In this document: piece by piece, positions 45,316 to 59,287 of the stretch
Layout of the letters: every line of letters begins with the position of its first letter
How positions within the stretch are numbered: the stretch's first letter is position 1
Assembly (NCBI GenBank): GCA_033549065.1
Contig: JAWSUE010000013.1
Span: 11,501 to 70,935, forward strand
Direction: 5' to 3'
Length of the DNA stretch: 59,435 nt
Source of the DNA: Bacillota bacterium
GTDB taxonomy: Bacteria > Bacillota > Dethiobacteria > DTU022
The notes under the pieces: model-generated
Databases searched by the model: none
Told to the model about the DNA's origin: nothing
The model's input: only the letters and a program-made list of their open reading frames with translations
Position numbers and translations under genes: made by a program

Positions 45316-47244
45316 ATGCCGCAAGTCAGGGAAAATACCATTGAAATTACGGAATTCCTGAGCGAAATGCCTCCCTTCAGCTTTCTGGAAGAAAAAGTCC
45401 TGAAAGATGTAGCAGGGGGAGCTAAAACCGCCCATTTCCCTGAAGGAACTTATATATTCCGTGAGGGGGAAAGATCGAAAAAAACGCTCTATATTGTCTA
45501 CCGGGGACAGGCTAAATCCCTTGTTTCAATCGGCGGCGATGAAACGGTAACGACAGTTAGAAACAGGGGTGATTTCTTCGGAATAACCGTCCTGCTTACC
45601 GACGAACCCTACCCCATATCCATGCTGGCCTCCAAAGATTTAACCTGCCTGTTGATCAGCCGTAAACTGTTTCATGAGGCTTTGAGCAGCAGTGAACGTT
45701 TCGCTGACTACTTTACAAAAATACTGGCTTCCAGGCTTAAGGAACTCTACCAGACCATTACCGATAATTACTTCGAAGGAAGAATTGACAGCGGTCAATC
45801 GTTGAAACGAAAGATTGCTGAAATACTGACTGAAAAAGTTATTACCTGTCTGCCCATGGATACGATAAGTAAAGTGGCCAAAAAAATGGCTGAATATAAT
45901 GTGAGTTCGGTTGTCGTCACTGCCTTTAACGGTAAACCGGTGGGGATAATAACTGAGAAAGACATGGTCAATAAAGTTCTTTCCGCAGATAAACCCGACC
46001 TGGAGCAACGAGCCCACAAAATTATGTCTCATGAATTGATCACTGTCCAACCTAACGATTTCAGTTACCAGGCGCTCTTAATGATGACCAAACATAATAT
46101 CCAGCATGTTGTGGTTACTGATGACAACGACGTCCTGCACGGAATTGTTACTGTAAAAGATTTAATCCGCAACCGCGAAAGCGGGGCTATTTCCATTGTC
46201 CGGCAGATAGAACACCAGGATTCTTTCTCAGGGCTGGCTGCTCTGATAAAAGAAGTGGATCAGGTAGAACAGGCCCTGATAACCGACAGGGCTTTTGCCT
46301 CTGAAATCTGTGCTCTGGTAAATGAACTCTATGATCGGATTATCCGAAAGATGGTGCGCCTGTCAGAATTAGAACTTGAGAGCTCCGGACTGGGGCTTCC
46401 ACCGGTTAAATACTGTTTCATCAACATGGGCAGTGGCGGAAGAAAAGAGCAGTATTCACGAAGCGACCAGGATAACGGGATTATTTATGAAGATTCCACA
46501 GGTGATCTGTCAGTACTTTCAGCAGAATACTTTTTAACTTTGGGGCGATTAATTGTTAAGGGTCTGGAGGAATGTGGTTTTAAACGCTGTGCCGGCGACG
46601 TTATGGCCGAAAATCCGGCCTGGTGCAAACCTCTTTCGGCATGGAAAGCCGATACCCTCGCCTGGGTTGACAAACTTGATCCGAAAGATATACGCAACAT
46701 GACAATATTCCTTGATTACCGCCCGATTACCGGCGATATAAAGCTGTATGAAGATTTAAAAATATTTACAGCCGACCTTTTTAAAAAATCGAGACATGCC
46801 CTGCAATTTCTGGCCGAGGATGACTTAAGACAGCACACTCCGCTCAATCTATTCAGGCAGATAATCACCGGAAAATCAAGCAAAGATCGCAATAAATTGA
46901 ACCTGAAAAATGCCGTAATGGTTCATCTTGTTGACTGCCTGCGAATTTTTGCCCTGCGGGAAGGGATCAACGAAACCAACTCGTTTGAGCGAATTCAGAA
47001 GTTAAAAGAACGGGGAGTTTTTAAAGTTGAAGATGCGGAATATATTGAAGCAGCTTATGAAACACTGATGATGTTTCGCATCCGCAATGCCCTGGAAAAA
47101 GTTAAAGCGGGCAAGCAGCCCGATAATTTAATCAACCTGAAAACACTGAGTAAAAAAGAGATGACTATGCTTAAAGAATCACTGCTGGTTGTTAACCGCC
47201 TTCAATCTTTAACCATGCATGCTTTTCATGCACATAAAGCTTAA
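45316..47244 (+). CDS. Signal protein: cNMP-binding domain + CBS pair + DUF294 nucleotidyltransferase
   Basis: A 642-residue protein. About 15-135 is a cyclic-nucleotide-binding beta roll (FPEGTYIFREGERSKKTLYIVYRG, NRGDFFGITVLL). About 170-290 holds two CBS motifs (VSSVVVTAFNGKPVGIITEKDM, IQHVVVTDDNDVLHGIVTVKDL). About 370-430 is a DUF294 PolB-type nucleotidyltransferase core, GSGGRKEQYSRSDQDNGI, with the GS and D-x-D metal site kept. The rest is the DUF294 C-terminal helical domain. It resembles the PII uridylyltransferase class. The target is unknown; a DEDDh exonuclease gene follows after 20 bp. Confidence 0.92.
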   Translation: MPQVRENTIEITEFLSEMPPFSFLEEKVLKDVAGGAKTAHFPEGTYIFREGERSKKTLYIVYRGQAKSLVSIGGDETVTTVRNRGDFFGITVLLTDEPYPISMLASKDLTCLLISRKLFHEALSSSERFADYFTKILASRLKELYQTITDNYFEGRIDSGQSLKRKIAEILTEKVITCLPMDTISKVAKKMAEYNVSSVVVTAFNGKPVGIITEKDMVNKVLSADKPDLEQRAHKIMSHELITVQPNDFSYQALLMMTKHNIQHVVVTDDNDVLHGIVTVKDLIRNRESGAISIVRQIEHQDSFSGLAALIKEVDQVEQALITDRAFASEICALVNELYDRIIRKMVRLSELELESSGLGLPPVKYCFINMGSGGRKEQYSRSDQDNGIIYEDSTGDLSVLSAEYFLTLGRLIVKGLEECGFKRCAGDVMAENPAWCKPLSAWKADTLAWVDKLDPKDIRNMTIFLDYRPITGDIKLYEDLKIFTADLFKKSRHALQFLAEDDLRQHTPLNLFRQIITGKSSKDRNKLNLKNAVMVHLVDCLRIFALREGINETNSFERIQKLKERGVFKVEDAEYIEAAYETLMMFRIRNALEKVKAGKQPDNLINLKTLSKKEMTMLKESLLVVNRLQSLTMHAFHAHKA

Positions 47245-51113: not shown

Positions 51114-52655
51114 TTACAGCGGTATATTGCCGTGTTTACGGACCAGCCTCTGTTCACGCTTATGTTCTACCATTTCAAGGCCGCGGATCAGGTATTCACG
51201 GGTCTGGCGGGGGTCGATAACTTCATCGATCCACCCCCTGGCTGCAGCAATATAAGGATTGGCATATTTGTTCTTGTACTGGTCAACCAGTTCATTACGT
51301 TTCTGATTTGCATCTTCAGCCTGATCGATTTCACGCCGGTTGACAATATTAACCGCACCTTCCGGGCCCATCACAGCAATCTCTGCCGAGGGCCAGGCCA
51401 GGCATAGGTCCGCACCCAACGACCGCGAATTCATCGCAATGTATGCCCCACCGTAGGCTTTCCTGAGGATGATCGAGATCTGGGGAACAGTGGCTTCTGA
51501 ATAAGCGTAAAGGACCTTGGCGCCGTGACGGATAACTCCTCCCCATTCCTGTTCAACACCGGGAAGGTAACCGGGAACATCCACAAAAGTAATCAGGGGT
51601 AAATTAAAGCAATCACAGAAGCGGACAAAACGGGCAATTTTATCTGAAGAATTAACATCAAGGCATCCCGCCTTAACCTGGGGCTGGTTGGCAATAATCC
51701 CGACCGGCCTGCCGTTAATCCGGGCAAAGCCGACTACCGCATTCTGGGCATAGCCGGCATGAACTTCCATCAGATCACTGCCATCAACAATTCGTTTGAC
51801 TACTTCGCGAACATCATAAGAGCGGTTTGGGTTATCGGGAATAATCGAAACAAGATCTTCCGCACTTAACTCGGGGAGAAGAGGCTCAACCAGGGGAGGG
51901 TCATCCACGTTATTGGAGGGAAGAAAACTGAGCAGCCTGCGGATCTGGCTGAAGCAGTTCTTTTCATCTTCAGCAAAGAAATGAGCCACCCCGCTGGTCT
52001 GGTTGTGGGTAGCCGCTCCGCCCAGATCTTCGGCCGAAACTTCTTCGCCGGTAACAGCCTTGATAACCTGGGGACCGGTAATAAACATATTCCCCGTACC
52101 ACTGACCATAAATATAAAGTCGGTGATCGCGGGAGAATATACGGCGCCCCCGGCACAGGGACCCATGATAACTGAAAGCTGTGGAATTACTCCGGAGCAA
52201 AGAGTGTTGCGATAGAAGATTGACCCGTATCCATTCAGAGCATATACCCCTTCCTGTATACGAGCCCCACCTGAATCATTGAGGCCGATAACCGGTGTGC
52301 CGTTCTGAGCAGCCAGATCAAGGATACGGCAGATCTTTGATGCATGCACTTCACTGAGCGAACCACCGGCCACAGTAAAATCCTGGGCATAAACATATAC
52401 ACTACGCCCACTTATTGTCCCGTAACCGGTAACAACCCCTTCGCCGGGATTGGGGTAATCGAGGCTGCTGGCATCTTCCAGGCCGGTCTGAGCAAAGGTC
52501 CCCAGCTCAACAAAGCTGTTTTCGTCGAGCAGCAGTTCAAGTCTTTCCCGGGCTGTAAGTTTCCCTTTCCCGTGTTGATCATTAATTCTTTTTTCTCCAC
52601 CACCGGCTGTTGTTAGCCGGCGACGCTCTTCAAGATGCTTTAACTTTTCATCCAA
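51114..52655 (-). CDS. Acyl-CoA carboxyltransferase subunit (methylmalonyl-CoA decarboxylase alpha / propionyl-CoA carboxylase beta type)
   Basis: A 513-residue biotin-dependent carboxyltransferase. It has KLTARERLELLLD near the N-terminus, the N-domain oxyanion LNDSGGARIQEGV, GPCAGGAVYSPAITDF, and the C-domain FVDVPGYLPGVEQE and RKAYGGAYIAM. With the mutase and epimerase genes it would interconvert propionyl-CoA and (S)-methylmalonyl-CoA. A biotin carboxyl carrier and a membrane decarboxylase subunit would also be needed; neither is in the window. Last gene of the operon. Confidence 0.92.
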   Translation of the reverse strand: MDEKLKHLEERRRLTTAGGGEKRINDQHGKGKLTARERLELLLDENSFVELGTFAQTGLEDASSLDYPNPGEGVVTGYGTISGRSVYVYAQDFTVAGGSLSEVHASKICRILDLAAQNGTPVIGLNDSGGARIQEGVYALNGYGSIFYRNTLCSGVIPQLSVIMGPCAGGAVYSPAITDFIFMVSGTGNMFITGPQVIKAVTGEEVSAEDLGGAATHNQTSGVAHFFAEDEKNCFSQIRRLLSFLPSNNVDDPPLVEPLLPELSAEDLVSIIPDNPNRSYDVREVVKRIVDGSDLMEVHAGYAQNAVVGFARINGRPVGIIANQPQVKAGCLDVNSSDKIARFVRFCDCFNLPLITFVDVPGYLPGVEQEWGGVIRHGAKVLYAYSEATVPQISIILRKAYGGAYIAMNSRSLGADLCLAWPSAEIAVMGPEGAVNIVNRREIDQAEDANQKRNELVDQYKNKYANPYIAAARGWIDEVIDPRQTREYLIRGLEMVEHKREQRLVRKHGNIPL

Positions 52656-52700: not shown

Positions 52701-53108
52701 TCATCGTTCGCACAATTCGATCAAAATGCCACCGGTTGATTTAGGATGAAGAAAGGCTATCCTGGCCCCACCTGCGCCATACCTGGGTTTTTCATCAATC
52801 AATTCAACACCCTTATCTTTAAGCTGAGCAAGTTTCTCTTCAATATTGGTGACCCGGAAAGAGAGGTGATGAATACCTTCACCCTTTTTCTCAATAAATT
52901 TTCCAACCGGTCCATCGGGAACGGTTGATTCAAGCAGTTCTATTTTGCTCTCACCTACCGGGAAAAAAGCGACCTTAACCTTCTGTTCGTCAACTACTTC
53001 GGTCCCTTTGAATTCTATACCGATCTGATCCCGGTAAAAACTGATTGCTTTTTCCAAATCCTTTACGGCAACACCAATGTGGTCTACCTTCTCGAACAAA
53101 ATAACCAC
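52701..53108 (-). CDS. mce: Methylmalonyl-CoA epimerase
   Basis: A 135-residue vicinal-oxygen-chelate protein. [20 protein letters not shown] holds the first metal His, GIHHLSFRV the second, and GILIELCE the terminal Glu ligand. It interconverts (R)- and (S)-methylmalonyl-CoA. It lies between the mutase B12 subunit (7-bp gap) and the carboxyltransferase. Confidence 0.94.
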
Positions 53109-53115
53109 CCCTGCC

Positions 53116-53520
53116 TTATTGATTTTGCATAATCCTGTCTTTTATAAAACTAATTATATTTTCGGTGGACGAACCGGGCGTAAACACTTCTGCAATGCCC
53201 TGATCTTTTAAGTAAACTATATCTTCTCTCGGAATAATCCCACCAACAATGACAATTATATCATGGCTCCCCTGTTCACGCAGCATTTCCAGCACCGGGG
53301 GAAGCAGCTGCATATGGGCACCGGACAATATACTTAAGCCGATTACCTGAACATCTTCCTGAAGGGCTGTTTCTACAATCTGTTCCGGGGTTTGTCTCAA
53401 CCCGGTATAGATCACTTCCATACCGGCATCACGCAGCGCCTGGGCAACTACTTTGGCTCCGCGATCATGACCATCAAGACCAACCTTGCCAACAAGCACC
53501 CGCAAAGGTTTTTCTGCCAT
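53116..53520 (-). CDS. Methylmalonyl-CoA mutase, cobalamin-binding subunit
   Basis: A 134-residue B12-binding domain protein with the base-off signature [21 protein letters not shown] (D-x-H-x-x-G), then [10 protein letters not shown] and VVGGIIP. It completes the large subunit encoded 31 bp upstream; in many bacteria the two are fused. The substrate could in principle be another acyl-CoA, but the neighbours point to methylmalonyl-CoA. Confidence 0.94.
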
Positions 53521-53551: not shown

Positions 53552-55225
53552 TTATAAGGTTATCTGCTGCTGATATTCGCCAAATACATCCCGTAAAACA
53601 CCGCATATTTCACCCAGTGTCGCATACGCTTTAACAGCATTCAGTATATGGGGCATAGTGTTTTCAGATGTTTTGGCTGCCTTGCGTAACTGCTGCAGCG
53701 CTTCTGAAACCTTGCCCTGATCACGGCTGAGGCGGACTTCTTTTAACCGTTCAACCTGGCGCTGGCTCGTGGCCGGGTCCATCCTAAGCAAATCGATAGG
53801 TTGCTCGCCGCTGACGGTAAAGCTGTTCACACCAACTACAACACGTTCTTTCGATTCGACCTCTTTCTGGTAGCGATATGCGCTGGCCTGGATCTCTTTC
53901 TGAATAAATCCCTTTTCAATTGCTTCCACCGCACCGCCAAGGTCATCGATACGTTTAATATATCTGAGCACTTCTTCCTCGATATGATCGGTAAGTTTTT
54001 CGATAAAATAAGAACCTCCCAGCGGATCGACCGTATCGGTAGCCCCTATTTCATAGCCGATAACCTGCTGAGTGCGCAGGGCAAGCAGCACGGATTGTTC
54101 ACTGGGCAAGGCCAGCGCTTCATCCCGGGAATTTGTATGCAGCGACTGGGTTCCCCCGAGGACAGCGCTCAATGCCTGGTAGGCAACCCGCATCAGGTTT
54201 ACATCAGGCTGTTGGGCAGTAAGTGTAGAGCCGGCTGTCTGGGTATGGAAGCGCAGCATCATGGAACGCGGATTTTTGGCGCCGAACCGTTCTTTCATCA
54301 AGGCTGCCCATACCCTTCTGGCCGCCCTGAACTTGGCAACTTCTTCAAAGAAGTTTGAATGGGCGTTAAAGAAGAATGAAAGGCGCGGACCGAACTGATC
54401 GACTTCCATGCCGGCCGCAATAGCCGCTTCAACATAAGCAATGGCATTGCTCAGGGTAAAGGCAACTTCCTGAACAGCCGTGGAACCCGCCTCCCTGATA
54501 TGATATCCACTGATGCTGATTGTATTCCAGGCCGGAATATTCTCACCGGCAAAAGCGAAGATGTCAACAATCAGGCGCATCGATTCCCGCGGGGGGAATA
54601 TATAAGTTCCCCGGGCGACATACTCTTTAAGTATATCGTTCTGGATCGTTCCGTTTAATTTATCCATGGGGATACCCTGTTTTTCGGCAACGGCCATATA
54701 CATGGCCAGCAGGACGGCTGCGGGGGAATTAATAGTCATTGAGGTGCTTACTTTATCCAGCGGTATCTTTTCCATCAGGATTTCCATATCCGCCAACGTA
54801 TCGATGGCTACGCCAACTTTCCCCACTTCACCGCGGGCCAGGGGATGATCGGAATCGTACCCGATCTGTGTCGGCAGGTCGAAGGCAACACTCAGACCGG
54901 TCTGCCCCTGATCCAGTAAATACCTGAATCTTTCATTGGTTTCTTCGGCGCTGCCGAATCCGGCATACTGGCGCATGGTCCACAGACGGCCCCTGTACAT
55001 GGTCGGCTGTATACCCCTCGTGTAAGGGTATTCGCCCGGCCAGTTCAGTTTGTCGGTATAATCAAAACCATCTAAACTGAGCGGGTCATAAACTGTTTCA
55101 AGTTCGAGATCTGAATCAAGTTTGAACTGCTTGCGCTCAGGATATTTCTCCAGAATCTCATTCAGCTTCCCGAGCCATTCTTTTTTTCTCTCATCTAATT
55201 GTATTTTGTTGTCCTGATCAGACAA
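53552..55225 (-). CDS. Methylmalonyl-CoA mutase, large (substrate-binding) subunit
   Basis: A 557-residue barrel subunit. Family segments are [64 protein letters not shown] and [18 protein letters not shown]. The tyrosine and arginine of [11 protein letters not shown] match the methylmalonyl-CoA type rather than the isobutyryl type. It interconverts methylmalonyl-CoA and succinyl-CoA with the B12 subunit encoded next. Confidence 0.94.
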
Positions 55226-55271: not shown

Positions 55272-56138
55272 TTATAGAATATTTTTCAGCAATCCGGGCA
55301 CTTCGGTCGGCAGTTCGGCAACACGGACACCGGCTGCGGAAAGAGCTTTCACTTTGCTTTCAAAAGTACCGCGGCCCCGCTCGATAATAGCTCCGGCATG
55401 ACCCATCCTTTTGCCCGGAGGTGCGCTTTTACCCGCAAGATAGGCAATAACCGGCTTTTTCATCGAGGAGCTGATATAGGCTGCCGCCTCTTCCTCGGCG
55501 CTGCCGCCGATTTCACCAACCAGGATAATCGCTTTCGTTTCCTGATCTGCTTCAAATTGCTCTAGGACATCAATAAAATGCATACCCACAATCCGGTCCC
55601 CTCCAAGCCCTACAACACTTGTTGTCCCGATGTTATGTTCTGTTAACTGGCCAACAATTTCATAGCACAAGGTTCCGCTGCGGGAGACAATGCCGACCGG
55701 ACCGGGAATAAAATAGCGGTTAGGCATGATCCCGATTTTCGATTTACCGGAAGATACCAGGCCGAAGGTATTTGGACCGACAATTACCGCCTCTTTCTGC
55801 TTCGCATAGGCCATAATATCCATTGCGTCATGCAGGGGAATATGTTCAGGGATCAAGACTAAAATTTTCAAGCCCGCTTCCAGCGCTTCGTAGGCGGCGT
55901 CACGGACAAATGGCGCGGGTATGAATAAGATACTGGCATCCGGCTTCTGCTCTTCTACGGCAGCAAATACAGTATCGTAAACGGGAATACCTTCCACCGA
56001 TTGACCGCCTTTTCCGGGAGATATGCCACCGACAATATTTGTTCCGTAAGCGAGCATCTGGCCCGTATGGAAAGAGCCCTGTTTGCCGGTTATCCCCTGA
56101 ACTATAACACGTGTTGATTGATCTATATAAATTGACAT
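55272..56138 (-). CDS. sucD: Succinyl-CoA synthetase alpha subunit SucD
   Basis: A 288-residue CoA-binding and phosphohistidine subunit. It has IVQGITGKQGSFHTGQM, the VGPNTFGLV region and the active-site histidine in RMGHAGAIIERGRG. Together with SucC it links succinyl-CoA hydrolysis to ATP or GTP formation, a substrate-level energy step if propionate is oxidised. It lies 47 bp after sucC. Confidence 0.95.
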   Translation of the reverse strand: MSIYIDQSTRVIVQGITGKQGSFHTGQMLAYGTNIVGGISPGKGGQSVEGIPVYDTVFAAVEEQKPDASILFIPAPFVRDAAYEALEAGLKILVLIPEHIPLHDAMDIMAYAKQKEAVIVGPNTFGLVSSGKSKIGIMPNRYFIPGPVGIVSRSGTLCYEIVGQLTEHNIGTTSVVGLGGDRIVGMHFIDVLEQFEADQETKAIILVGEIGGSAEEEAAAYISSSMKKPVIAYLAGKSAPPGKRMGHAGAIIERGRGTFESKVKALSAAGVRVAELPTEVPGLLKNIL

Positions 56139-56185: not shown

Positions 56186-57292
56186 TCAGGCCCGGGAAAG
56201 TTCGACAGCATGTCTTACAGCATCATCCATCGAACTGAAAGCCTGAATACCGGCTTTTTCAAGAATAGCCCGGCCTTCCGTCTCGTTGGTGCCGACCATG
56301 CGGAATGCTACCGGCAGGTCTATGCCTTTACTCTCTCTCGTTTTGACAAAGGCTTCTGCAACCACATCACAGCGGGTGATTCCGCCAAAAATATTGATCA
56401 TCAATACCCTGGGGTTCGTTCCCAAGAGTAGTTCAAGCGCCTGGGCTGTCCGCTCGATATCAGCCCCGCCGCCAAAATCAAGAAAGTTTGCCGGTGAGCC
56501 GCCATAATGCTGGACCATATCGAGGGTAGCCATGGTTATTCCGGCCCCGTTGGCCATTACAGCAATATCTCCCCCGAGTTCCACGTAGGCCAGATCGAGT
56601 TCCTCTGCTTTAAGTTCAAGGGCAGTTTTCTCCGTTACCCTGGGAAGCTGCGGGTGCCGGTAGAGAGCATCGTCATCGATGGTAACTTTCGCGTCGGCCG
56701 CAACCAGTCCTTCAGGGGTCAGCGCGAGGGGATTTATTTCGGCCAGTTCTGCGTCAAGTTCCCTGAACATCTTGTAGAGCTTGGGCAGAAATTTTAAAAA
56801 TTCTTTCTGCAGATTCCCGCCTACTCCCATCAACCGGCAAATTTCACGAATCATGTAGTTCTGCAGACCGATAGAAGTGTCAACCGGCCACTTGATCATT
56901 CTCTCTTCGGCCACTTCCTCAACATCCATTCCTCCATCCAGCGAGGCAAGAACCAAGGGACAGCGGGCTGCTGGATCAACTGTAATCGCCAGGTAAAGCT
57001 CCTGTTCAATGTTTAATTTTTCTTCCACCAAAATCTTGTCAACTGTTACATCATTTAAGCGCATCTTCAGAATTTTTTCCGCTTCATCTTTCGCTTCAGC
57101 CGGGGTTGCAGCAAAGGCAATGCCTCCCGACTTACCCCTTTTTCCGGATAGAACCTGCGACTTTATAACAACTTCTCCAAACTCAGCCGCAGCCTCAGCT
57201 GCTTCTCCAGCACTTTCCACCAATTTTCCCCGGGGCACGGGAATGTCATAACGATAAAAGAGTTTTTTGCCCAGATATTCATAAAGTTTCAA
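56186..57292 (-). CDS. sucC: Succinyl-CoA synthetase beta subunit SucC
   Basis: A 368-residue ATP-grasp subunit. It has MKLYEYLGKKLFYRYDIPVP, VVIKSQVLSGKRGKSGGI, AEINPLALTPEGLVAADAKV, and NFLDFGGGADIERTAQAL with IFGGITRCDVVAEAF. It is the second gene of the operon, 30 bp after the regulator. Confidence 0.95.
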   Translation of the reverse strand: MKLYEYLGKKLFYRYDIPVPRGKLVESAGEAAEAAAEFGEVVIKSQVLSGKRGKSGGIAFAATPAEAKDEAEKILKMRLNDVTVDKILVEEKLNIEQELYLAITVDPAARCPLVLASLDGGMDVEEVAEERMIKWPVDTSIGLQNYMIREICRLMGVGGNLQKEFLKFLPKLYKMFRELDAELAEINPLALTPEGLVAADAKVTIDDDALYRHPQLPRVTEKTALELKAEELDLAYVELGGDIAVMANGAGITMATLDMVQHYGGSPANFLDFGGGADIERTAQALELLLGTNPRVLMINIFGGITRCDVVAEAFVKTRESKGIDLPVAFRMVGTNETEGRAILEKAGIQAFSSMDDAVRHAVELSRA

Positions 57293-57322: not shown

Positions 57323-59023
57323 CTAATCGCTGTACTTTTTCAATTTATTATAGAGGGTTGCCAAAGAAATATTCAAAGCCTGTGCTGCCTTCTTTTTACC
57401 TTGCAGTGACTCACCATATCTGGTTAAAGCCAGTTTTAACATCATCTCTTCCATTTTATCGATTGGAAGAATCTCGTCAAAAAGTGGAGCTTCCCGGACA
57501 CTCTGCCGCCCGATATAGGGTGACAGGTGATGAAATTCTATTGTATTGCTGTCAGAGACTACTATCGCCCGCTCCATAACACTTTTCAATTCGCTTATAT
57601 TTCCGGGCCAGTCGTAGACAGTTAGCTCCTGAAGGGCCCGTGGGGAGATTTCGCAAACTTTCTTACCCAGTTTTCTGTTCAGGCGATCCATCAGAGACGC
57701 AGCCAACAGGGGTATATCCTCTGTCCGTTTTCTAAGCGGCGGAATATTAATACTTAACTGCCCCAGCTTGCGGTAGAGAGCTTCAGAAAAATGGCCCTGC
57801 ATGAAAGCTTTGATCAGATCTTCACTGGCTGAGGCAATAATCCTCACATTAACCGGAATCGCCTGATCGCCGCCTATTCTGGTGAAAGATTTTTCTTCCA
57901 AAACTGAAAGCAGTTTATTCTGCAGGTAAGGGTTGAGGGAATTTACTTCCTTGATAAAGAGGCTGCTCCCTTCAGCCAGTTCAATTTTGCCCAGTCGTGT
58001 TCTCAATATACCGGGCAGTGCCCCTTTCTCACAACCAAAAAGTTCAATCTCCTGGACTGAATCGGGAACCGCAGAACAATCCAAAATAATCAAGGGTCTT
58101 TTATTTCTGCTGCTGCTGTTATGGATGGCCGAAGCGAAAAGACTTTTTCCCGTGCCGCTTTCACCGCTGAGCAATAAAGTTGACTCGCTCCTAGATGCCT
58201 TGCGTGCTTTATCTACCGTGGCCAGAAAAACTTTACTGTGCCCGGTTAGCGACTCAAAGGTAATCCGGTTTCCCGATATCTGGTCAATCTGGGCATACAG
58301 GTTGTCGATAATTACATTGCTGTGCTTCAGTTCATCCATTAACCGGAGGATATCTCCGACAGGCTGAAATACCACAACGGCCCCCATTAGTTCACCATCA
58401 ACAATTATGGGCGACGCGTTGGATACAACATCGGCGTCTGAACCGCCCACGTAAGTTCTGTAACCGGTAACCGGTTTCTGCTGGATCAGTGACTGGGCCA
58501 GCGCCCCGTGGGGAGAGACATCAAATATGCTGTGGTTGATCCTTTTTTTCTCCGGTATTCCCGTTACCCTGGTGAATGCCGGATTAACGTACTTAACAAT
58601 TCCTTTGTTATCAACTACCTCGATCGCATCCTGAACCGAATTCAGAATCGCGTAAAGCTCGCCCTTGACCAGCCGTGTTTCCAACAGTTGTTCTCCCGAA
58701 TTAACTATAGCGTCCAGGACCGACCGCGGTTTGATCTCTTCCAAGCGGATATGTTCGTTCAACTTTTCTCTCAGATAATCGCTTACCGCAGGTTCTTCCG
58801 TTCCATCAATAATTGTTTCCAGGCCGGGCAGTGCTATGATCTTATCAATATCTGCCGTTACATAGTATTTCTGCCGTTCCGATTCGCTTAACCAGTCAAT
58901 TTCACCATCAGGACAGGCAACGCCCAGCAGATCGACTTCGGCACACTGCTGCAGCAACCTGAACAGGTTAATTCCTTTTTGCCCACTGACTACCAAAGCC
59001 GTTTTAATCAACTGGCAAGGCAC
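57323..59023 (-). CDS. PAS / AAA+ / Fis-type regulator, degenerate sigma-54 activator
   Basis: A 566-residue protein. About 1-100 is an N-terminal domain of unknown type, about 120-220 a PAS domain (ILNSVQDAIEVVDNKGIVKYVNPAF), about 255-480 an AAA+ domain, and the C-terminus a Fis-like HTH (GKKKAAQALNISLATLYNKLKKY). Walker A GESGTGKS (287-294) is intact. GAFTGA is replaced by GALPGI (334-339), the Walker B Asp by Lys in SLFIKE, and both arginine-finger positions are lost (HFSEALYRKL). It cannot be a standard sigma-54 ATPase. It heads the sucCD-mutase operon and probably senses a pathway metabolite. Confidence 0.9.
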   Translation of the reverse strand: MPCQLIKTALVVSGQKGINLFRLLQQCAEVDLLGVACPDGEIDWLSESERQKYYVTADIDKIIALPGLETIIDGTEEPAVSDYLREKLNEHIRLEEIKPRSVLDAIVNSGEQLLETRLVKGELYAILNSVQDAIEVVDNKGIVKYVNPAFTRVTGIPEKKRINHSIFDVSPHGALAQSLIQQKPVTGYRTYVGGSDADVVSNASPIIVDGELMGAVVVFQPVGDILRLMDELKHSNVIIDNLYAQIDQISGNRITFESLTGHSKVFLATVDKARKASRSESTLLLSGESGTGKSLFASAIHNSSSRNKRPLIILDCSAVPDSVQEIELFGCEKGALPGILRTRLGKIELAEGSSLFIKEVNSLNPYLQNKLLSVLEEKSFTRIGGDQAIPVNVRIIASASEDLIKAFMQGHFSEALYRKLGQLSINIPPLRKRTEDIPLLAASLMDRLNRKLGKKVCEISPRALQELTVYDWPGNISELKSVMERAIVVSDSNTIEFHHLSPYIGRQSVREAPLFDEILPIDKMEEMMLKLALTRYGESLQGKKKAAQALNISLATLYNKLKKYSD

Positions 59024-59067
59024 CCGCCTTTCTTTACCTTAGAATATTCGTAAAAATTAGAAGAACT

Positions 59068-59080
59068 CCTGCCAGGCAGG
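59068..59080. promoter_or_regulatory. Palindrome upstream of the methylmalonyl operon
   Basis: CCTGCC-A-GGCAGG, a perfect 6-bp inverted repeat with one central base, 45 bp before the regulator gene. It could be an operator, for example for autoregulation, or a small hairpin in the leader. Confidence 0.4.
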
Positions 59081-59154
59081 CTTTATTTTAAGGAACTGCC
59101 CTTCTAAATTTTTTAATATCTCACTTGGAAGTAATTGAATCGGGCTTTGAAAAG

Positions 59155-59200: not shown

Positions 59201-59287
59201 GCGGGCGTGGCGGAACTGGCAGACGCGCTGGACTTAGGATCCAGTGGGAGCAATCCTGTGGAGGTTCAAATCCTCTCGCCCGCACCA
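59201..59287 (+). tRNA. tRNA-Leu (UAG)
   Basis: Class II tRNA. Acceptor GCGGGCG pairs with CGCCCGC, the anticodon stem-loop contains CTTAGGA, there is a long variable arm, the T-loop region is GGTTCAAATCC, and CCA is encoded at 59285-59287. Confidence 0.96.

Follow-up and report, generated by a model that had tools for sequence, protein, structure and literature searches.

Several relatives of the sigma-54 activators lack the GAFTGA loop and act at sigma-70-type promoters, among them TyrR, DhaR, HupR, VpsR and the NtrC proteins of Rhodobacter and Caulobacter (PMC3162934, PMC10274813), and a preference for proline at the fourth position of GAFTGA has already been noted in defective homologs (PMC3162934). 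The regulator described here is encoded at the head of a methylmalonyl-CoA (propionate) operon in a stretch of 59,435 nucleotides, all of which was analysed and which we call the window. It resembles the TyrR group in that GAFTGA is absent, the AAA+ fold and a Fis-type helix-turn-helix (HTH) are kept, and sigma-54 appears to play no part. Several members of that group carry loop deletions, whereas here the loop residues have been replaced. Unlike the TyrR group, the regulator has also lost the Walker B aspartate, the sensor I residue, both arginine fingers, the sensor II residue and the signature of an NAD(P) site; moreover, canonical and intermediate stages survive at its locus, and its putative target is a sigma-H-type promoter of propionate metabolism.

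Two named regulators were considered as identities for the protein and rejected. PrdR (NCBIfam NF041552), a representative of the PAS-containing sigma-54 activators of Bacillota with which it shares PAS, AAA+ and HTH domains, is its best NCBIfam match, but the score of 320 bits falls far short of the 795-bit cut-off, and the regulator differs from PrdR in its target operon and in the loss of catalytic residues. PrpR (TIGR02329), which activates propionate catabolism with sigma-54, has in common with it a propionate-related target, the AAA+ domain and the HTH; however, the operon here belongs to the methylmalonyl-CoA and not the methylcitrate pathway, the protein does not look competent for sigma-54 by its sequence, a PrpR_N domain was not found by Pfam, and 199 bits were obtained where 499 are needed. 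As to the promoter, the closest described cases are the sigma-H metabolic promoters of Sporomusa and relatives, in which AGGA and GAAT separated by 17 or 18 nt precede genes of energy metabolism (PMC12456013), as they do here. Unlike those promoters, the one in the window is overlapped by palindromes, precedes a methylmalonyl-CoA operon, and lies in a genome without a Spo0A above cut-off. We consider it probable that the regulator is a former sigma-54 activator, no longer working with sigma-54 and now engaged at the sigma-H-type promoter of the propionate operon. This view draws on the losses, their gradient among orthologs, the synteny, the lack of a -24/-12 site near the operon, the promoter-like element and a shared palindrome, all of which can be read directly from the sequences.

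Table 1. Features of the regulator gene, its upstream region and the operon (window coordinates).
Feature	Position	Strand	Basis
Regulator ORF, 566 aa from GTG	57323..59023	-	ORF list, Pfam, alignment
N-terminal NAD(P)-type Rossmann fold (predicted), residues 5-112, GxGxxG loop lost	58688..59011	-	AF2, Foldseek, Pfam matches of relatives
PAS domain, residues 121-222, mean pairwise identity 83% in family	58358..58663	-	Pfam, alignment
AAA+ core of sigma-54-activator type, residues 258-430, degenerate	57734..58252	-	Pfam, alignment
Walker A GESGTGKS, residues 287-294, retained	58142..58165	-	alignment
GALPGI replacing GAFTGA, residues 334-339	58007..58024	-	sequence, alignment
Walker B K358-E359 (canonical D-E; Glu kept)	57947..57952	-	alignment
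Sensor I position S400 (canonical Asn)	57824..57826	-	alignment
Arginine-finger positions S413 and K419 (canonical Arg, Arg)	57767..57787	-	alignment
Sensor II position S477 (canonical Arg in WPGNxREL)	57593..57595	-	alignment
Fis-type HTH, residues 520-564, mean pairwise identity 87.5%	57332..57466	-	alignment
Conserved promoter/operator element GCAGGAGTTCTTCTAATTTTTACGAATATTCTAAGG, single copy in genome	59029..59079	-	
Sigma-H-type -35 (GCAGGAGTT)	59064..59072	-	matches published consensus (PMC4754846; PMC12456013)
Sigma-H-type -10 TACGAAT; AGGA to GAAT 17 nt	59046..59052	-	
Candidate operator 1, TTCTAA-TTT-TTACGA, 2 mismatches, overlaps spacer and -10	59048..59062	-	
Candidate operator 2, TTCTAA-GGT-AAAGAA, 2 mismatches, just downstream of -10	59030..59044	-	
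Third, weaker palindrome match, upstream of promoter	59102..59116	-	
Succinate-CoA ligase beta (sucC), start 30 bp past regulator	56186..57292	-	
Succinate-CoA ligase alpha (sucD)	55272..56138	-	
Methylmalonyl-CoA mutase large subunit	53552..55225	-	
Methylmalonyl-CoA mutase B12-binding subunit	53116..53520	-	
Methylmalonyl-CoA epimerase	52701..53108	-	
Carboxyltransferase (mmdA-like)	51114..52655	-	

Pfam recognised in the regulator a PAS domain (3.9e-9) and the AAA+ domain of sigma-54 activators (2.7e-47; 161 bits for the core and 84 bits for the lid), and the Fis-type HTH (HTH_8) was recognisable at 20.7 bits, slightly below the Pfam cut-off of 22 bits. Of the features expected of a bacterial enhancer-binding protein (bEBP), the Walker A P-loop and the homology of AAA+ core, lid and HTH are present, and the GAFTGA loop, Walker B Asp, sensor I Asn, arginine fingers and sensor II Arg are missing; loss of GAFTGA in an otherwise homologous protein, the mark of the TyrR/VpsR/HupR type, is what was found here. 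An earlier sequence-only reading had noted that Walker A remained, that GAFTGA read GALPGI, that the Walker B Asp was Lys and the arginine-finger positions Ser and Lys, and that PAS and HTH were intact. The alignment bore out each of these points, and the HTH proved to be the most conserved domain of the family. That reading had overlooked the losses at sensor I and sensor II and the additional N-terminal domain with its Rossmann fold, as well as the sigma-H-type promoter and the operator described below. Although the P-loop lysine (K293) is invariant in the family alignment, the Mg, sensor and arginine-finger residues are gone; binding of ATP through the retained P-loop, which that reading had suggested, is possible. 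The annotated start has probably been set 12 nt too far upstream, because orthologs begin at the residue of TTG codon 5 and the spacing to the upstream element is constant, and the true start is likely this TTG at 59011, which would give a protein of 562 aa.

The losses are a property of the whole family to which the regulator belongs. This family comprises 43 genomes, and residues were counted in the 27 sequences that cover the AAA+ region: the Walker B Lys is present in all 27, and Pro occupies position 4 of GAFTGA in 26 (GA[ML]PG). Sequencing error was rejected since the same losses recur in the 27 family sequences, and a pseudogene was rejected on their agreement together with dN values well below dS. 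In every domain, including AAA+, dN was far below dS, the latter being saturated in several pairs. RpoN was found in 41 of the 43 genomes and is present in that of the window, so the loss is specific to the regulator and cannot be put down to disappearance of RpoN. Nine further activators in the same genome score in full and have GAFTGA or GSFTGA together with Asp-Glu, the nearest canonical paralog being about 35% identical to the regulator. Conservation in canonical relatives is highest in the AAA+ core (mean pairwise identity 77%, with PAS at 69%); in the regulator's family the corresponding values are 64.5% for the AAA+ core, 83% for PAS, 87.5% for the HTH and 46% for the N-terminal domain. 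Constraint thus appears to have shifted from the AAA+ core to PAS and HTH.

The full-length AlphaFold model was too poor to use (mean pLDDT 56), and only the N-terminal domain was interpreted. Modelled by AF2 with a pLDDT of 83, it has a predicted Rossmann fold that in Foldseek resembles NAD(P) dehydrogenases and Rex. The N-termini of canonical relatives keep GxGxxG and match NAD-binding Pfam families (GFO_IDH_MocA, 1.9e-7, in L151), and in the window regulator the glycine loop is absent and the domain has no Pfam match. Given that loop and match are lost while the fold is still predicted, a redox-nucleotide sensor has probably decayed in parallel with the ATPase.

The regulator was compared with those that head mmc-type clusters, as had been proposed in order to learn whether the losses are shared. 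These regulators are orthologs, and those found in synteny in other classes (L151-L156) are fully canonical, so the losses common to the regulator's family are derived. Graded states were found within its own class, sister families being intermediate. Some members of family f6 are canonical (L096, L101, L102); L097 and L103 have lost the second arginine finger, and L098-L100 have lost that finger and the sensor I Asn; family f5 has GAFSGA or GAFCGA with Asp-Asn at Walker B, and L087 (f3) and L088 (f4) have decayed further. L093-L095 carry a signature that looks separate, GAFPGA with Glu-Asp. When the columns of the AAA+ core were left out, a tree made by a quick method without bootstrapping united 45 sequences in one clade (SH-aLRT 99), 44 of them mmc heads and the remaining one L183; canonical members lay outside, and nested inside was the decayed f3/f4/f5/f1 group. 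If L093-L095 follow taxonomy, there would have been at least two independent losses. L183 itself is long-branched, has GAYPGA with an intact Asp-Glu and no nearby -24/-12 site, and may represent another early stage of decay.

To look for sigma-54 sites, a 23-bp -24/-12 matrix was derived from 23 sites that lie downstream of canonical relatives, most of them non-mmc. A scan of the whole 59-kb window returned none at or above 14 bits and none serving the operon, by which a missed sigma-54 promoter at the operon was excluded. Of the nine canonical activators that this genome encodes, six have a -24/-12 site of 17-24 bits within 3.5 kb. Among 80 related and hence non-independent family sequences, such a site lies near 30 of the 46 that pass a GAFTGA/Walker B test and near none of the 34 that fail it, an association confounded by shared descent. 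Of the 13 passers in the mmc clade, only one (L153) has a nearby site; since the other 12 are also without one, loss of the site does not track loss of the AAA+ residues there. Either the -24/-12 site went first, as we argue, or those 12 proteins serve distant sigma-54 promoters. The earlier proposal that the regulator has become independent of sigma-54 gains from these results, as all contact residues and most ATPase residues are lost and the operon is without a -24/-12 site in a genome that has RpoN. Two paralogs outside the mmc clade (L166 and L173, family f111) have deleted the GAFTGA loop, keep the Walker B, sensor and arginine-finger residues intact, and also lack a nearby -24/-12 site; by deletion, they appear to have left sigma-54 control along a second route.

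Within the class, orthologs head the gene order regulator-sucC-sucD-mutase large-mutase small-epimerase-carboxyltransferase, with a few genomes shorter or carrying insertions. The regulator had previously been linked to propionate metabolism, and the invariant synteny, together with a candidate operator inside the operon's own promoter, strengthens that link. In L100 the gap between regulator and sucC contains an insertion of GC-rich tandem-like repeats (CTCACCCTCGCCCTCTCCC). Upstream of the regulator is a conserved 36-bp element, GCAGGAnTTCTTCTAATATTTACGAATATTCTAAGG, which occurs once in the genome at up to three mismatches and is found at mmc heads of families f1, f4, f5, f6 and f45. Where other genes split the regulator from sucC, a second copy lies directly before sucC (L096, 11664-11705; L102, 3497-3540), which argues that the element is the promoter of the operon. 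Sigma-H promoters have a published consensus (PMC4754846), with AGGA and GAAT cores 17 or 18 nt apart (PMC12456013); the element has both cores at the shorter spacing, and the cognate SigH is encoded in the genome (372 bits over cut-off). Of 40 clade members, 33 carry AGGA-N17/18-GAA[TC] upstream of the regulator gene, as do 12 of the 26 other relatives, with 0-1 in controls; these sequences are related and not independent. We infer that the operon promoter uses sigma-H. The presence of SigH where no Spo0A was found above the curated cut-off suggests that SigH serves vegetative metabolism in this genome. On the far side of the regulator's promoter, at a distance of about 120 bp, is a divergent tRNA-Leu gene (59201-59287, plus strand).

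The search for a binding site used no prior motif. Between canonical regulators and their sigma-54 promoters, TTAGAA/TTCTAA was the most enriched hexamer (24 of 27 loci vs 7.7 expected), often arranged as TTCTAA-N3-TTAGAA, and in canonical relatives most palindromes within one mismatch of this lie shortly after the regulator gene; the arrangement would fit the expected enhancer of this regulator family. Among the results listed in a literature search, none tied this palindrome to a bacterial enhancer-binding protein. At the mmc promoter the motif, with two mismatches, gave 49 matches in 35 upstream regions against 1.1 expected; the regions are related and not independent, but the motif itself came from other sites. 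The exact palindrome is absent from the genome of the window, and two-mismatch matches are not in excess over the window as a whole (6 vs 3.6 expected); three of the six fall inside 87 bp. In candidate operator 1 the right half merges with the -10. The regulator probably binds these candidate operators, and PAS presumably carries the signal. Because the sites cover the spacer, the -10 and the start region, repression is likelier than activation; an operator placed over a core promoter suggests this sign and does not prove it, and we lean towards repression.

The history that we propose would run as follows. In an ancestor, the regulator gene would have been transcribed from a sigma-H-type promoter, and its product, bound to TTCTAA-N3-TTAGAA enhancers that lie past the regulator gene, would have used ATP hydrolysis to fire the -24/-12 promoter of the next operon. 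In the lineage of the methylmalonyl-CoA operon that promoter would have disappeared, possibly before decay of the ATPase set in, leaving the operon to be transcribed by read-through from the sigma-H-type promoter of the regulator. Once the protein no longer had to engage sigma-54, the active site of the AAA+ domain and the NAD(P)-binding site of the Rossmann domain would have decayed stepwise, PAS and HTH meanwhile remaining under strong constraint. Today, most likely, oligomers built on the AAA+ scaffold bind the two tandem operator copies over spacer, -10 and start, and the protein most likely represses the whole propionate operon, its own gene included, under the control of PAS. The complete scheme we hold to be somewhat less likely than not: a sigma-54 enhancer-binding activator would have become a core-promoter repressor of a sigma-H promoter through promoter loss followed by operon fusion, one palindrome serving as enhancer and later as operator, with living intermediates at one syntenic locus and a fixed Walker B Lys that may replace Mg2+ and so lock the nucleotide as a structural cofactor.

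The same rewiring could instead have yielded an activator of TyrR/VpsR type that aids polymerase carrying sigma-H (or sigma-A), a nucleotide or a ligand of the PAS domain being its co-effector. Activation of sigma-70 promoters is known from relatives without GAFTGA (PMC3162934, PMC10274813), and invariance of the P-loop lysine speaks for such an activator; however, the candidate sites lie across the spacer, the -10 and the start region, which activators seldom occupy, and we regard activation as rather unlikely. Very improbable, in our estimate, is an inactive subunit that joins one of the nine canonical activators in heteromeric rings and still takes part in sigma-54 transcription. Its AAA+ fold, lid and oligomerisation scaffold would permit this, and RpoN and canonical paralogs are at hand, but GAFTGA has given way to a loop with a fixed Pro, the operon has no nearby -24/-12 site, and even the closest of the potential partners is a distant paralog. 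Damage to both nucleotide-binding sites might also be taken to mean a functionless relic carried along by the operon. The ORF is nonetheless intact in many genera, dN stays well below dS in every domain, PAS and HTH are highly conserved, and so are K358 and the replacement Pro; we give the relic hardly any credence.

As far as the literature was searched, the syntenic intermediates, the coupled decay of an NAD(P)-type domain, the takeover by a sigma-H-type promoter and the candidate operator are new. The escape of ATP-driven activators from sigma-54 control has so far been told mostly from its end points. One operon here holds a series that extends from a canonical regulator with a sigma-54 promoter (L153) through canonical proteins without one and partial active-site losses to full loss, which makes the order of events, promoter first and enzyme later, testable. 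Our reading also predicts a regulator, an operator and a sigma factor for a central propionate operon of uncultured syntroph-like Bacillota, and the annotation label "sigma-54 interaction domain" would be wrong for this regulator family. Elsewhere in the window, at 45316-47244 on the plus strand, is a gene for a 642-aa protein that partly matches IMP dehydrogenase, next to a long-chain acyl-CoA ligase.
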